Shown in pieces: positions 2,183 through 63,132 of a DNA stretch of 64,000 nucleotides. Below the pieces are notes generated by a model. The model searched no databases. It was not told the DNA's origin and saw only the letters and a program-made list of their open reading frames with translations. The position numbers and the translations under genes are program-made. Every line of letters begins with the position of its first letter. Positions within the stretch are counted from its first letter, which is position 1. The DNA is from an uncultured Thermomicrobiales bacterium (lineage in GTDB: Bacteria > Chloroflexota > Chloroflexia > Thermomicrobiales > UBA6265): assembly GCA_902806335.1 (NCBI GenBank), contig CADCWG010000014.1:1-64000 (forward strand), written 5' to 3'.

Positions 2183-2329
2183 GGTGATCGCTGGACCGTC
2201 GCTCAACGGGAGTGCAGCCGGCTTCGGTCGGCTTCGTCCCTGAGTCTCTGACCTCGGGGCTTGCCCCGGGCGGGCCGAGCCCCCGATCCCCCGGATATCA
2301 CCGCTGATCGGCCGGGTCCGGTCTCGGCC
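2183..2329. repeat. Dispersed ~150-bp intergenic repeat, copy A
   Basis: One of four related copies in the window. Shared landmarks in order are GGTGATCGC, GCCGGCTTCGG exactly 34 nt later (as in copy C), the core TGAGTCTCTGAC at 2241-2252, a GGGGC-TTG-CCCC hairpin followed by GGGCGGGCC, and a degenerate right end (GGTCCGGTCTCGGCC) matching GGATTCGGTATCAGGCC of copy C. It lies 62 bp past the stop of the histidine kinase gene, in the same orientation relative to a minus-strand 3' end as copy C. Confidence 0.65.
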
Positions 2330-31127: not shown

Positions 31128-31163
31128 GGCACCCGGCCAGGTATGGTCGTCCCACCCTGGACC

Positions 31164-31275
31164 CGGTGATCGCCGCGCCTCGGCCCGGCGGGCCATCAGC
31201 CGGCTCAAGCCGGCTTCGAGCCTGAGCCTCTGACAAGGGGGTCTGCCCCGGGCGGGTCAGTCCGCCCGCGTCCCT
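31164..31275. repeat. Dispersed ~150-bp intergenic repeat, copy B
   Basis: Landmarks shared with copies A and C are GGTGATCGCC, GCCGGCTTCGAGCC, the core TGAGCCTCTGAC (31222-31233) and TGCCCCGGGCGGG. The right end is diverged after about 31265. It lies between the divergent LLM oxidoreductase and nuclease-helicase genes. Confidence 0.6.
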
Positions 31276-31629
31276 CATCCACTACGGACCGGTCGTGTTC
31301 CAGTTCGCACGGTTCCGCACGGTCTGCCCCTTTGCCGCCTGCCGTCGGGCGAGTGCATCGAACACCGGCGGTTGACCGCCCTCCGCTGTGACGCGGCCAA
31401 GCCAGGACAGGTGTGCTAGAGGAGGCGAGAGCAGTGTCTCCCCGAAGCAGCGCAACTCCCGCTGGGTGCCGGAATCGAGTACTGTTCGCGCGACACGTGA
31501 CATTCGACGAAATGTGCTCGGCGCCGCCTGGCTCCCGGCGATGAGGTCCCGACCCCGGGGCTCCCGCTGGTGTCCCGCCGGCGGCCGGCGAGACGGACGG
31601 CGGCGGGGTAGGTCGCCGGGGGACAGGCG
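31276..31629. other. Upstream region of the nuclease-helicase gene
   Basis: No gene or clear promoter is visible. A weak inverted repeat, ACATT-N6-AATGT, stands near 31500. Base composition is somewhat less G+C-rich than the neighbouring genes. Confidence 0.4.
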
Positions 31630-34600
31630 ATGGGGCAGGTCGCGGGTGGTGCTCTTGGTCCGGCGGGCGACGTGCTGACCGTGCCGCCGGACGGACACGG
31701 CGTCCGGCGTCTCTCGCCGACCGACGTCTCGCAGTTCGTCCGGCTGGAGCAGTGCCGGCGCTACCTCCGGCTCCGTCTCCACGAGCGGGCGGTGGGTCGC
31801 GATTTCCTCTCCGACCTCGGCGTCACGGCGCAGGCCATTCCGCCGCTGCTGACCCGCTCGGGCGTCGAGTACGAGCGGCGGATCGAGACCGCCGTCGCCC
31901 GCCGCTACCCGGTCTGGGACTTCGGTGGCGAAGGCAAGGCGTCCAAGACGCGCACCGACGACAACGCCGAGCTGGTCGAGGCCGCCGTCGACCTGCCGCC
32001 CGGGGCCTCGATCGTTCTCCTCCAGCCCCGCCTTCGCGTCCAGCTCGACGGGTGGCTGGTGGTCGGCGACGTGGACCTGCTCCGCCTGGAGCGCGACCGC
32101 GAGGGGACCCTTCGGGCGCTGGTGGCGGACGTCAAGAGTTCGAACTCGGCCAAGGTCGAGCACCGGCTCCAGGTCGCCTTCTACCAGGCGATGCTGGCCG
32201 CCCTCTTCGCGGAGTCCGGCGTCGCCTGCGCGGAGATCGCCCTGTCGATCCTCTACCGGGGGCCGCTCAGCGACCCGGAACCGGCCGACGCCGCCGACGT
32301 CGCGCGCCTCGCCGCCGAGCGGGCCGCTGCGCTGGATCACTTTGGCGTCGACGAGGGGTACCTCGAGATCGTCGCGGACCCCGACGCCTACGCCGGGGCG
32401 GTCCACGACCTGGTCACGGGACCGACGTCGGTCGCCCGGACCGCCGCCGAGGCCCCGTTCGAGGCCATCCCCTTCCACCTCACCTACAAGTGCGATGGCT
32501 GCCTCTACAACGAGTTCTGCATGAAGCGGAGCGTCGAGGGGGACGACCTCTCGCTACTGCCGCACCTGGCCGAGCAGGAGAAGGCGGCGCTGCGCCGGGC
32601 GGGGATCGAGACCACCAGGGACCTCGCGGCGTTGAAGGTTCTCCGCCAGCCGGGCGCCGGTGGTGCGACGCCGGGCCCGACCGAAGCCGACGACCCGCCC
32701 GAGTTGGGACGCTCCAGGCGGAGCTGGGATCTCGTGCCGGCGCCCGGTCGGGAAGCCGACGTGCGCGCCCTCGCGGGCACGTGGCGGCTCGGGCCACGGC
32801 TCGACACGCTGGTCCACCGGGCCCACCGCTACCGCAAGTACCTGGGTGAGCCGGTCGAGGCCCCGCCGTGGATCCCGGGGACGGGCTACTCGTCGCTGCC
32901 CTACACCGACGCCGAGCACGACCCGAACCTGGTCCGCGTCTACCTGGACGCCCAGCACGACCACCTCACCGACCGGGTCTACCTCCTCGGGGCGCTCGTC
33001 GTCGGCTGCGAGGGCGGGCGCGAGGTGCCCACCCGGCGGCGGTCGGTCGTCCGCATGGCCGACGGCGCGCCCGACGCCGCGGCCGAGGCCGCGCTCTTCC
33101 TCCGCTGGGTCTGGGACACGCTCCGGGCGATCAACGACGTCGCCGCCCCGGACGCGGCCGGGCAGCCACGGGCGCCGATCCACCTGATCTTCGCGCGCGA
33201 CGTCGAGCAGCGCCGCCTCCTCGACGGCCTGGCCCGGCACGCTGGCGAAGTCCTGGGTGCGACGCCCCTCTACGACTTCGTGACCCAGCTCGCCGGGTTC
33301 GACTCGTCGCTCGTCTCCTACCTCGACCAGGAGGTCCGCGACCACAAGAACCTGCCGATCGTCTGCCAGTCGCTCTATTCCGTGTCGGCCCACCTTGGCT
33401 TCCAGTGGAACCAGCCGGAGCCCTTCCGCCGGGTCTTCCGGGAGCGCATCTTCGACTCGCAGGGCCGGCTCGACGGGACCGCCGGTTCGGTCGCGCCCGA
33501 CGACGGCGCCGTCTGGTACACCCGCCGGGCGCGGTTCGATAGCCAGCTCCCTCTGGAGTACGCCTACGCTTCCTGGGGCGACCTCGGTCCCCCACGGCAC
33601 GGGGCGAAGGACGACCTCGCGCCGTACCGGGAGGTGACCCGCGACCAGCTCGTGGCCTTCGAGGCCCGGCGCCTCGAGGCGATAGAGCACATCGCGCGTC
33701 AGTTCAAGGGCAACCGGGACACGAGCAAGACCCCCTTCCTGCTTCCCGACCTCGCCACGTTCGACGGCCGCGCGCGTTCCCTCGCGGGCGCGCTCGACGA
33801 GTTCCTGACCATCGAGCGGCACGTCGCCCTCCAGGCCTGGAAGCGTCTGCGCCTCGCGGCTCCCGAGCGGCGCGTTCTCGCCGGGCAGACGCTGATCGTC
33901 CGCTACCACGAGGCCGATCAGGATCCCGAGGTCGTCGAGCGCAACCGGGACAATCTCGAGCGGCAGGCTCAGCGGGACGCCTTCTATGCCGAGACCGCCG
34001 CCGGTCCGGACGGCAAGGTGAAGCTCTCCAAAGAGGACAGGGACGCCACCAGGTGGAGCCAGGAGGGGATGGCGGTCCGGCTGCGCCTCGACGTCTCCGG
34101 CGTCGACTGTGGCCTGGAGGAGACCGTTGCTCTCTCCACGCTTCGACCGGGCGATTCCCTGATCCTGTTTCCGCGCACAACCGTTGACCGCCGCCTGCCG
34201 CGCGAAGAGCAGGTGCCAAAGATGCCGACCGCCAAGCAGCTCCTGCATGGGGCGCGCGCTTGGCTGACTAGGATCTCGGTCGAGACCGACCCATCGGGTG
34301 CGCGCGTCGCGTTCGCCGAGGTGAGACTCGGCCGCGAGAACGGGCACACCGACTCGCGCGGGTACACGTTCGGTCCGACCTTCACCGCCCCGCTCCACGC
34401 CGAGGAGTGCTACACCCTCGACGAGGACCCGAACGACTACTACGGCTTCTGGCAGGCCAAGGTGGTCGACGGGCTCACCGCCGGCGGCGCGTTGAACGCG
34501 GTCTACGCCCGGCTGACCGGCGCCGCTCCCGGTCGTGCCGACTGGCCCGCGGTCGCCGCCGCCGGCCAGAGCCAGTTCCTCGCCGGGCTCGACGCCCTCA

Positions 34601-36129
34601 AGGCGGCGGGAGCGGCGCCGGGATTCGAGCCGGGCAAGCGGGCATTCATCGGGGGCCACGGCGAGACGCCGACCCTGCTCGTCCAGGGGCCGCCGGGCAC
34701 CGGCAAGAGCTACACGACCGCGTTCGCGGTGCTGGCCCGGCTCCAGGGGGCGATGGCCGCGGGGCGCGACCTCCGGGTCGTGGTCGGTTGCAAGACCCAC
34801 GCGGCCACCGACGTCCTGCTTGCCAAGATCGCCGACGTCCAGGCGGATCTCCGGCGGCAGAAGGCCGCCCACCCCGCCATCTGGGCCGCCCACTTCGACG
34901 ACCGCCTCCTCGACGTCCCCCTCTATCGGCTCCGGCCCCGGGGCGAGCCTCCCGCCGGCACCCGCCCGCTCGTGTTCCGCGACGACCCCGAGACCGACGG
35001 TCGTAAGGTCGTCGAGGTCCTTCGCGGCCATGCGCACGTCGTCGTTGGCGCCACGCCGGGTGGGGTCTACAAGGCGGTCAAGGAGGGCTGGACCAGGGGG
35101 CTCCACGGCCATCACCTCGTCGACTGCGTGGTGCTCGACGAGGCGTCCCAGATGGGGCTGCCGGAGGCGGTGATGGCGGCGCTGCTGCTCCGCCCCGACG
35201 GCCAGCTCGTCGTCGTCGGTGACCACCGCCAGATGCCGCCGATCGTCCAGCACGCCTGGGAGGACGAGCCGCGGCGGACCTTCCAGGAGTATCAGGCCTT
35301 CGCGTCGCTGTTCGAGGCGCTCCAGGGCATCAAGGCACCCACGATCCGGTTCGCCGAGAGCTTCCGCCTCCACGCCGACCTCGCCGAGGTGCTGCGAAGG
35401 GAGATCTACCGGCACGACGGGATCGCCTACCACTCCCGGCGCAGGGACCTGCTGCCCCCGGTCGAGGCCGCCGATCCCTTCGTCGCGGCGACGCTGACCC
35501 CCGAGCACCCGCTCGTCGTCGTGGTCCACGGCGAGGCGTCCAGCCAGCAGCGCAACCCCTTCGAGCAGGACCTGATCGTGCCCCTCCTCGACGCGATGTC
35601 GGGGGGACTGGGGCTCGACCCGAAGGACGGCATGGGGGTGGTCGTGCCCCACCGCGCCCAGCGGGCCGCCCTCCAGGCGGCGCTGCCGCACCTGACGGTC
35701 CTCGACCCGCTCACGGGCGAGCCGGGCCGGTCGGCCGTCGACACCGTCGAGCGCTTCCAGGGTGGGGAGCGGGACGCGATCGTGGTCGGGGCGACCGAGA
35801 GCGACCCGGGGTACCTGCTCCTCGCGGGCGACTTCCTGCTCGACCCGCGGCGGCTGACCGTCGCCCTCAGCCGCGCGAAGCGGAAGATGGTGGTGGTCGC
35901 CGCGCGGTCGGTCTTCTCGCTCTTCAGCGCCGACGAGACGACGTTTGCCCACGCCCAGATGTGGAAGAACCTGCTCCGGCGGACCTGCACCGTGCCGCTC
36001 TGGTCGGGTGAGCGCGACGGGGTGCCGGTCGAGGTCTGGGGGAATGATCCGGCGCTGACGCCGCCGGCGCCACCCGTGCCCGCCGAACCGCCGGCCTCGG
36101 CGGAGAGGCCGGCGGTGCTTGCCCGATAG
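31630..36129 (+). CDS. TM0106-type Fe-S RecB-like nuclease fused to an SF1 (Dna2/Upf1-like) helicase
   Basis: This 1499-residue multidomain protein starts with an Fe-S PD-(D/E)xK nuclease (~28-300). It has first Cys EQCRRYL (C42), acidic residue VVGDVDLL, core LVADVKSSNSAK, the QxxxY motif RLQVAFYQAML and the Cys cluster KCDGCLYNEFC, as in TM0106/Cas4/Dna2 enzymes. An RNase-H-like segment (~430-610, VYLDAQHDHLTDRVYLLG) follows; its first motif reads DxQ, not DxE. A ~350-residue linking region separates this from the SF1 helicase: Walker A GPPGTGKSYTT (~1020), Walker B VVLDEASQMGLPEA, motif III VVVGDHRQMPP, motif IV AESFRLH and motifs V/VI ERFQGGERDAIVV and TVALSRAKRKM. A role in DNA repair, replication-fork processing or phage defence is possible. 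It stands alone, converging with the ABC transporter operon. Confidence 0.88.
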   Translation: MGQVAGGALGPAGDVLTVPPDGHGVRRLSPTDVSQFVRLEQCRRYLRLRLHERAVGRDFLSDLGVTAQAIPPLLTRSGVEYERRIETAVARRYPVWDFGGEGKASKTRTDDNAELVEAAVDLPPGASIVLLQPRLRVQLDGWLVVGDVDLLRLERDREGTLRALVADVKSSNSAKVEHRLQVAFYQAMLAALFAESGVACAEIALSILYRGPLSDPEPADAADVARLAAERAAALDHFGVDEGYLEIVADPDAYAGAVHDLVTGPTSVARTAAEAPFEAIPFHLTYKCDGCLYNEFCMKRSVEGDDLSLLPHLAEQEKAALRRAGIETTRDLAALKVLRQPGAGGATPGPTEADDPPELGRSRRSWDLVPAPGREADVRALAGTWRLGPRLDTLVHRAHRYRKYLGEPVEAPPWIPGTGYSSLPYTDAEHDPNLVRVYLDAQHDHLTDRVYLLGALVVGCEGGREVPTRRRSVVRMADGAPDAAAEAALFLRWVWDTLRAINDVAAPDAAGQPRAPIHLIFARDVEQRRLLDGLARHAGEVLGATPLYDFVTQLAGFDSSLVSYLDQEVRDHKNLPIVCQSLYSVSAHLGFQWNQPEPFRRVFRERIFDSQGRLDGTAGSVAPDDGAVWYTRRARFDSQLPLEYAYASWGDLGPPRHGAKDDLAPYREVTRDQLVAFEARRLEAIEHIARQFKGNRDTSKTPFLLPDLATFDGRARSLAGALDEFLTIERHVALQAWKRLRLAAPERRVLAGQTLIVRYHEADQDPEVVERNRDNLERQAQRDAFYAETAAGPDGKVKLSKEDRDATRWSQEGMAVRLRLDVSGVDCGLEETVALSTLRPGDSLILFPRTTVDRRLPREEQVPKMPTAKQLLHGARAWLTRISVETDPSGARVAFAEVRLGRENGHTDSRGYTFGPTFTAPLHAEECYTLDEDPNDYYGFWQAKVVDGLTAGGALNAVYARLTGAAPGRADWPAVAAAGQSQFLAGLDALKAAGAAPGFEPGKRAFIGGHGETPTLLVQGPPGTGKSYTTAFAVLARLQGAMAAGRDLRVVVGCKTHAATDVLLAKIADVQADLRRQKAAHPAIWAAHFDDRLLDVPLYRLRPRGEPPAGTRPLVFRDDPETDGRKVVEVLRGHAHVVVGATPGGVYKAVKEGWTRGLHGHHLVDCVVLDEASQMGLPEAVMAALLLRPDGQLVVVGDHRQMPPIVQHAWEDEPRRTFQEYQAFASLFEALQGIKAPTIRFAESFRLHADLAEVLRREIYRHDGIAYHSRRRDLLPPVEAADPFVAATLTPEHPLVVVVHGEASSQQRNPFEQDLIVPLLDAMSGGLGLDPKDGMGVVVPHRAQRAALQAALPHLTVLDPLTGEPGRSAVDTVERFQGGERDAIVVGATESDPGYLLLAGDFLLDPRRLTVALSRAKRKMVVVAARSVFSLFSADETTFAHAQMWKNLLRRTCTVPLWSGERDGVPVEVWGNDPALTPPAPPVPAEPPASAERPAVLAR

Positions 36130-61581: not shown

Positions 61582-61735
61582 GGCCTGATACCCAATCCGG
61601 GCGATCGCCAGCGCGTCCCCCGCCGGTCCGAGCCGGCCCCGTACCCGAGCCTCCGACCCCAGGGCTCGCCCCGGGCAAAAACGGGGACGACCGAGCGGCC
61701 GATGCCTCCAGCGATGACCCAGATCCGGGACGACG
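61582..61735. repeat. Dispersed ~150-bp intergenic repeat, copy D (left unit of a tandem pair)
   Basis: It starts with GGCCTGATACCCAATCC (61582-61598), the inverted complement at 16 of 17 positions of the right end of copy C. It continues with GGGCGATCGCCAGCGC, the core CGAGCCTCCGAC (61647-61658) and GGGCTCGCCCCGGGC. It is the most diverged copy. No gene lies between the clpB terminator and the end of the CvpA-like gene apart from copies D and C. Confidence 0.55.
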
Positions 61736-61751
61736 TCTCATATCGGATCCG

Positions 61752-61897
61752 GGTGATCGCCGGCGCTTCGGCCGGCGGGATCGCGGCCGGCTTCGGCCGG
61801 GTTCGTCCCTGAGCCTCTGACCGCGGGGCTCGGCCCCGGGCGGGCCGTCCCGGCGCCCCCGGGACCACCACCGATCAGCCGGATTCGGTATCAGGCC
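61752..61897. repeat. Dispersed ~150-bp intergenic repeat, copy C (right unit of a tandem pair)
   Basis: Best-preserved copy. It runs GGTGATCGCCGGCGCTTCGG, GCCGGCTTCGG, TTCGTCCCTGAGCC with the core TGAGCCTCTGAC (61810-61821), GGCCCCGGGCGGGCC, and the right end GGATTCGGTATCAGGCC (61881-61897). The spacing from GGTGATCGC to GCCGGCTTCGG is identical to copy A. The stop codon of the leftward CvpA-like gene lies within its right end. Confidence 0.65.
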
Positions 61898-63132
61898 CTG
61901 GGGTTCGGCGTGCCGCAGACCGGGCAGGCGCGGTCCACGCGGGCGAGCGCTTCGCCACAGATCCGGCAGCGCTCTCGCGGGCCATCGTTCCCGTTGCCGC
62001 TCGACGACGGCTCCTCGCCGTGGGGGACGTCGGCGTCGGTAGGGGCGTGCCGCGGGTGCCCGTCCCCCCATCGGTGGCTTGCATCGGGGTGCTCCGCGGG
62101 CCGGGTTCCGGCTGCCGCCCGCCGGAGCCAGTCGTCCAGCACCGTCCCCCCTTCGCGCGGTTCATCCTGAGGCCCTGTCTCGTCTCGGGGACGGGACGAA
62201 CGCGCGGGCGGTTCGTCTCCCGTGAGAGCCCCTTCTCGTGTGGGCCCCCCGGGCTGCTCGGGTCGGCGGATCGATTGGGCCCAGGCCGTCTGCCAGCCCT
62301 CAGACCCGTGGGCGACGGGGGGTCGGTGCCCGGCGTCGGGACGCCACGGTCGCGCCCGGTCCTCATCGCCGGGAGACCGGTCCGACGACAGCGTCACCGG
62401 GACCGTCCCACGGGCGATCGGCACCCCACGCGGCGGGGCGGACCGGTCCGGCCGCTCGATCTTGCCCGCGTCGGCCTGGCGCGGGACCCGCACCGGCCGA
62501 GCGCGCGGCGCGACGTGGTCCGGCTCGCCCCGACGATCGGGGGCCGAGCCCCATCCCGACGGCGTCCCGGCGCCGACCGGGACGGGGACGGATGGGTCCT
62601 CGGCCGCGCCGGGGAGGAGGCGTCGGCCGAGCAGCCCGGCGGCGACGGCGATGCCGGCGGCGGTGGCTGTCGCGACCAGGACCCACCCTGTCCCGTGGAG
62701 CAGACCCCGACCGACGATGCCACGCTCGATCGCCTGCCGCGGCGCGCCCTCGAGCAGGAATCGGTCGAGCGCGCCGAGCATAAAGCTCAGCAGCAGCACG
62801 CCGTTGCAGGCGGCGAGGAACGCGCCCGCGGCCCGCTCGCGGAGCGTCGGCCGGTGGTGCCCGAGCAGCACGCCGCCCGGATAGCCGAGCGCGGCGACGG
62901 CGCCGAGCAGCAGTGCGGCCGCGACGAGGAAGCGGGCGGCCTGCGGACGGAGATCGGCAAGGGTGGCCAGGTCGTCGCCCCACGGGCGGGCCCAGGCGCC
63001 CATCAGCGTGGCACCGAGCAAAATCGAGGCGGAGACCACGATCTCGCGGGGACCGCCCCGCCAGGCACCCAGGGGCACCAGGAGCAGCAGCGCGACGAGG
63101 AGGAGGAGGTCGAGGGCGAGCGCGGCGGCCAT
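61891..63132 (-). CDS. CvpA-like membrane protein with C-terminal zinc ribbon
   Basis: This 413-residue protein has a membrane N-terminus of about four to five helices (ALDLLLLVALLLLVPLGAWRG; EIVVSASILLGATLMGAW; AARFLVAAALLLGAVAALG; AFLAACNGVLLLSFMLGAL; GWVLVATATAAGIAVAAGLLG). The GAWRGGPREI turn and overall pattern resemble CvpA/colicin V production proteins. A ~200-residue Pro/Arg/Asp-rich, apparently disordered region follows. The C-terminus is a four-Cys zinc ribbon, CRICGEALARVDRACPVCG. GGAGGG precedes the ATG at 63132. I cannot assign a role. Membrane topology places the ribbon probably in the cytoplasm. It may be transcribed divergently from the PHP-domain gene. Confidence 0.7.
   Translation of the reverse strand: MAAALALDLLLLVALLLLVPLGAWRGGPREIVVSASILLGATLMGAWARPWGDDLATLADLRPQAARFLVAAALLLGAVAALGYPGGVLLGHHRPTLRERAAGAFLAACNGVLLLSFMLGALDRFLLEGAPRQAIERGIVGRGLLHGTGWVLVATATAAGIAVAAGLLGRRLLPGAAEDPSVPVPVGAGTPSGWGSAPDRRGEPDHVAPRARPVRVPRQADAGKIERPDRSAPPRGVPIARGTVPVTLSSDRSPGDEDRARPWRPDAGHRPPVAHGSEGWQTAWAQSIRRPEQPGGPTREGALTGDEPPARSSRPRDETGPQDEPREGGTVLDDWLRRAAAGTRPAEHPDASHRWGDGHPRHAPTDADVPHGEEPSSSGNGNDGPRERCRICGEALARVDRACPVCGTPNPRA

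Follow-up and report, generated by a model that had tools for sequence, protein, structure and literature searches.

Several families of bacterial MITEs have been described, such as Correia/NEMIS, RUP, Nezha, Chunjie and MITEAba12 (PMC10969869), and with the element reported here they have in common a length of 70-300 bp, a non-coding sequence, terminal inverted repeats (TIRs), short target duplications, a high copy number, a mostly intergenic location and the ability to fold. ERIC, whose copy number in Photorhabdus luminescens goes as high as 711 (PMC10969869), is likewise a short extragenic imperfect palindrome of very high copy number, and is likened to our element by description, not by sequence. 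The pneumococcal repeats BOX, RUP and SPRITE are likewise enriched between convergent genes, clustered and inserted into one another, and their convergent bias has been interpreted as a sign that parasitic insertions are tolerated when they lie downstream of genes (PMC3049150). The GTAG/CGTC REPs are also extragenic and lie between convergent or co-directional genes (PMC3733652), and the IS1031 and IS427 groups of the IS5 family share with our element a short target duplication of 3 bp (PMC2516522 for the 3-nt site).

Against this background, we present the analysis of a repeat noticed in a window of 64,000 nucleotides, which spans positions 1-64000 of contig C14 in a draft genome of 4.82 Mb. 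The repeat is almost certainly a non-autonomous DNA transposon (MITE) of about 150 bp, which carries no gene, is present in several hundred copies and lies mostly between convergent genes.

Copies in the window and in the genome

The initial annotation had named four loci of the window as copies of one repeat, and all four prove to be real. A profile made from other copies in the genome matches exactly these four and nothing else in the window (nhmmer; 2172-2324, E 1e-32; 31159-31299, E 1e-15; 61586-61730, E 5e-11; 61738-61893, E 5e-43), and chance is excluded, since the reversed 791-kb sequence of the contig sample gives no match even at E 10. In ungapped repeat finding, three of the four copies make up the largest direct-repeat family of the window; copies 1, 2 and 4 keep a common ungapped register over 126 nt, in which the latter two are 63% and 71% identical to copy 1. 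The claim that all four are intergenic is borne out by gene calls from codon usage. The boundaries are redrawn here from the terminal repeat and the alignment.

All four copies lie on the forward strand. Copy 1 (2172-2323) has decayed terminal repeats and the core TGAGTCTCTGAC at 2241-2252, and is supported by the alignment and a covariance model (128 bits) besides the profile. Copy 2 (31155-31304) is older, with both ends decayed and the core TGAGCCTCTGAC at 31223-31234, and is supported by profile, pattern and context; it sits between divergent genes, a setting found for only 4 copies in the 791 kb. A gene at 31672-36129, adjacent to this copy, encodes a protein of 1485 aa in which helicase-type AAA and PD-(D/E)XK nuclease domains occur. 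Copy 3 (61589-61730), placed by profile, alignment and ends, is also older and has the core CGAGCCTCCGAC at 61646-61657 and an internal deletion in the 5' hairpin, so that, if C denotes this third copy, the identical internal spacing that had been described for A and C does not hold. Copy 4 (61741-61890) is the best preserved and best defined in the window, with 93% identity to another copy in the genome. Its core, again TGAGCCTCTGAC, lies at 61810-61821, its left TIR TATCGGATCCGGGTGATC at 61741-61758 and its right TIR, on the minus strand and reading inward TACCGAATCCGGCTGATC, at 61873-61890. The target-site duplication TCA flanks it at 61738-61740 and 61891-61893, and the right one coincides with the stop codon (TGA) of the gene 61891-63132 on the minus strand. 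This gene, which has a weak Colicin V production domain, received copy 4 in its stop codon, and the stop codon stays intact thanks to the duplicated TCA (61738-61893).

The possibility raised at the outset that the genome holds no further copies is clearly contradicted by BLAST, covariance model and profile, all of which find many more. BLAST of the best copy against the genome gives at least 53 matches and the covariance model at least 150 copies, every one of the 150 candidates scored matching at E <= 6e-6. In 791 kb of contigs the profile gives 96 matches at E <= 1e-3, with none in the reversed control, or about one per 8 kb; part of this sample was picked for holding copies, and the six largest contigs alone give about one per 11 kb. 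Extrapolated from the sampled density, the genome probably has a total of about 450-600 copies. Among 95 full copies the pairwise identity has a median of 68% and a maximum of 96%, which suggests, as far as sequence divergence can tell, an amplification spread over a long time.

Terminal repeats, target duplications and nested insertions

The element is 136-164 bp long across the aligned copies, non-coding and outside the called genes, with imperfect terminal inverted repeats of about 18 bp at both ends (TACCGRATCCGGSTGATC). In the alignment it runs from the left end TACCGGATCCGGGTGATCGC through several G+C-rich hairpins and the core TGAGCCTCTGACC to the right end ACTGATCAGCCGGATTCGGTA, and the bounding pair can be written TACSGRATCCGG..CCGGATYCSGTA. 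With up to 3 mismatches the end motif has 152 matches in the genome, compared with 1 for the reversed motif, and every sampled TIR match that had seemed to lie outside the copies turned out to be inside one.

In 75 copies with clear ends, C-TNA precedes the element and TNA-G follows it, giving the consensus C-TNA-[element]-TNA-G. The variable middle base is the same on both sides in 50 of the 75 (24 expected, with a maximum of 38 in 5000 shuffles) and complementary in only 11; because it agrees and is not complementary, the flanks represent a direct target duplication and not an extended, paired stem. The insertion target is CTNAG, and the duplication is 3 bp (TNA). A perfect 3-bp duplication is kept in only 18 of the 75 copies (7 expected), and many copies are old.

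The core of the element itself contains CTGAG, and some copies do sit within another copy. Computational removal of the inner element together with one TNA lets the flanks rejoin into a continuous outer copy at the loci L125 (E 1e-18) and L124 (E 7e-16), and the outer copy is likewise restored after excision at C146:66881 (E 1e-11) and L026 (E 2e-9). At C146 the inner element lies between CGTCCCTGA and TGGGCCTCTGACC of the outer copy, with the insertion at the predicted site and one base changed in the second TNA. These nested insertions which restore the outer copy are the strongest evidence of mobility here. A recurrent composite is also seen at C63:4135-4444, C163:46843-47081 and C21:25098-25323 of the same genome, in which a 5' half-copy and a diverged copy whose end is GGACTCCGGGTGGTTGC are joined; a nested insertion may have given rise to it as a longer subfamily.

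Taken together, the TIRs, the TNA duplication and the nested insertions identify the element as a MITE. From the description of the repeat as REP/MITE-like, the MITE half is therefore retained, on these three features and the very high copy number, and the strict REP/REPIN half is given up, a TIR with a target duplication being a hallmark of DDE-type elements. As to how the copies came to their places, our best guess, made from the anatomy, is a DDE transposase with a 3-bp stagger. Provided in trans, this enzyme would have acted on the element by recognising its ends, cutting it and joining it at CTNAG across that stagger. Insertions in genes and promoters would then have been removed by selection, leaving the surviving copies downstream of genes.

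Genomic context and a possible role at transcript boundaries

Using a simple codon-usage gene caller, we find none of the 96 copies lying mostly within genes, compared with 78% of random boxes. The 72 occupied intergenic gaps comprise 46 convergent, 22 co-directional and 4 divergent ones, where the element-free length predicts 13, 40 and 19 respectively (chi-square p 5e-22), and of the 95 convergent gaps 46, or nearly half, contain a copy. Between co-directional genes the copies are mostly antisense to the genes, by 21:6 (p 0.006), or 16:5 when counted by gaps (p 0.03). A targeting of stop codons is rejected: of 42 insertions, 6 fall on a stop codon, but 14-16% of the non-coding CTNA/CTNAG sites are stop codons anyway, so that no enrichment is seen.

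The occupation of the convergent gaps and the antisense bias, together with the stable G+C-rich hairpins, are what speaks for a co-opted mobile element, the hairpin-rich copies acting as bidirectional terminators or RNA-decay barriers between convergent genes, with selection helping their retention. Such a reading is compatible with a MITE origin, and we consider it unlikely: convergent enrichment is also what tolerated parasitic insertions predict, and it is seen in pneumococcal repeats and in IS elements as well (PMC3049150), the structure is not kept in old copies, and the consensus has no T run after the hairpins. As judged from gene arrangement, the biases in convergent gaps and in orientation may still leave room for a secondary role of the MITE at transcript boundaries.

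Related ends in other genomes and the search for a transposase

In 60 other genomes of the order we do not find the body of the element: the best matches there reach 34 bits versus 173, and the weak matches mostly have the ends in common; nor does the body match a plasmid or phage. The searches brought up no further genome of its own genus. One 20-mer match in Streptomyces looks like chance, and the profile gives no match there. The ends are, by comparison, enriched in many genera of the family, with 154 matches versus 1 in the control for the genome G002, 66 versus 0 for G057 and 53 versus 0 for G009. In G002, which belongs to another genus, elements of 87-198 bp lie between such ends, their interiors being unrelated, and well-matched end pairs have an identical 3-bp duplication in 10 of 20 cases (3.9 expected, shuffled maximum 10). 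With the same ends and TNA duplications around different interiors in G002, what moves seems to be an end/target system whose interiors change, and the fact that it encloses other interiors in at least one further genus points to a transposition system which is probably old and family-wide, its transposase being now rare, unassembled or lost here.

The MITEs of G002 show two further features. Palindromes of the GTAG type are present inside them: at L164, L165, L172, L177 and L178 the same-ended MITEs enclose a GTAG-tagged palindrome GTAGCCGCCGGCCCTGTGCCGGCGG..CCGGCGGCTAC, which resembles a REP dimer carried within the MITE or inserted into it. A second subfamily of 194-198 bp has the same ends and an unrelated interior (L171:1005-1202, L164:579-776, L173:969-1166 and L174:882-1075).

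In the part of the genomes and the few transposase families covered, we found no autonomous element with these ends. The IS5-type fragments and remnants in the own genome are without them; none of 29 PF13340 loci of relatives in the family and none of 19 PF01609 loci in six end-rich genomes is flanked by them; G002, with its 154 end matches, has no PF13340 at all; and in 1.16 Mb of one relative no TIR pair 0.6-6 kb apart is convincing. Some IS5 groups have a TNA target, and IS5 TIRs have G-rich starts, unlike the TIR of the present element, which starts with TAC. On the whole, the IS5 family (IS1031/IS427 groups) is not supported as parent, as no DDE_Tnp_1/DUF4096 transposase, that is, neither PF13340 nor PF01609, was found with the ends of the element among the loci covered.

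These observations may be joined with those on context into a wider proposal, namely an old, family-wide system of interchangeable interiors that have only the ends and the CTNAG/TNA target in common, served by a transposase from outside the usual IS5 families. In this lineage one interior would have spread to several hundred copies and filled about half of the convergent gaps, its antisense-biased hairpins being transcription boundaries. Taken as a whole, we hold this proposal to be unlikely.

Structured-RNA and REP readings

It had also been suggested that the repeat is a conserved structured RNA. Such an RNA, or else a cis-regulatory RNA, would be kept in many copies for the use of its fold. 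Some signs of a fold do exist: two recent copies fold better than shuffles, the best one at z -3.6 and another at z -5.8, and in the 31 closest copies the covariation score of 0.129 exceeds 0.115 in column shuffles (0 of 500). This excess is marginal, as are the results of RNAalifold and pair counts on these copies. However, the diverged copy 1 folds no better than shuffles (z -0.85), the paired fraction in 95 divergent copies equals the expectation of column independence at nearly every one of the 55 pairs, and no consensus structure emerges from them in RNAalifold. With no base-pair covariation beyond chance across the 95 copies, the second of the two refuting outcomes named at the outset, a conserved structured RNA is not supported, and the reading is already largely refuted by this result. 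Rfam at gathering thresholds gives no match for the repeat, only a tRNA passing in the window, and the flanking target duplications and the nesting of copies also oppose an RNA; we thus regard this reading as highly improbable. Equally remote is the reading as a repeat of the REP/REPIN type, mobilised by a RAYT (HUH) transposase. This would agree with the extragenic, palindromic, clustered and very abundant copies downstream of genes, but not with a clear TIR of about 18 bp, a 3-bp target duplication, a length of about 150 bp and a consensus without the GTAG/CGTC tag, since REPs of that kind are tagged palindromes of 20-40 bp.

Comparison with known systems

Overall, the repeat represents a MITE family that is new and very abundant, within a well-known kind of element. 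What sets the family apart is chiefly its copy number, and that no mobilising enzyme was found; the collections searched do not recognise it. Its ends are common across genera, the interiors are unrelated and the transposase is not seen, which poses the question of which enzyme moves them. The copies also provide a data set on how such elements settle, with strict avoidance of genes and promoters, a strong bias to convergent gaps, a bias in orientation, and repeated self-insertion at the CTGAG core. Compared with the bacterial MITEs named at the beginning, the element is a new sequence family, with a 3-bp TNA duplication in CTNAG and no related IS found. It differs from ERIC in that terminal repeats and TNA duplications are demonstrated for it, and from BOX, RUP and SPRITE in its ends, target and host, and in the several hundred copies of one element. 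Its density of about one per 8-11 kb lies near the top of the range given for bacteria in a review (PMC10969869).
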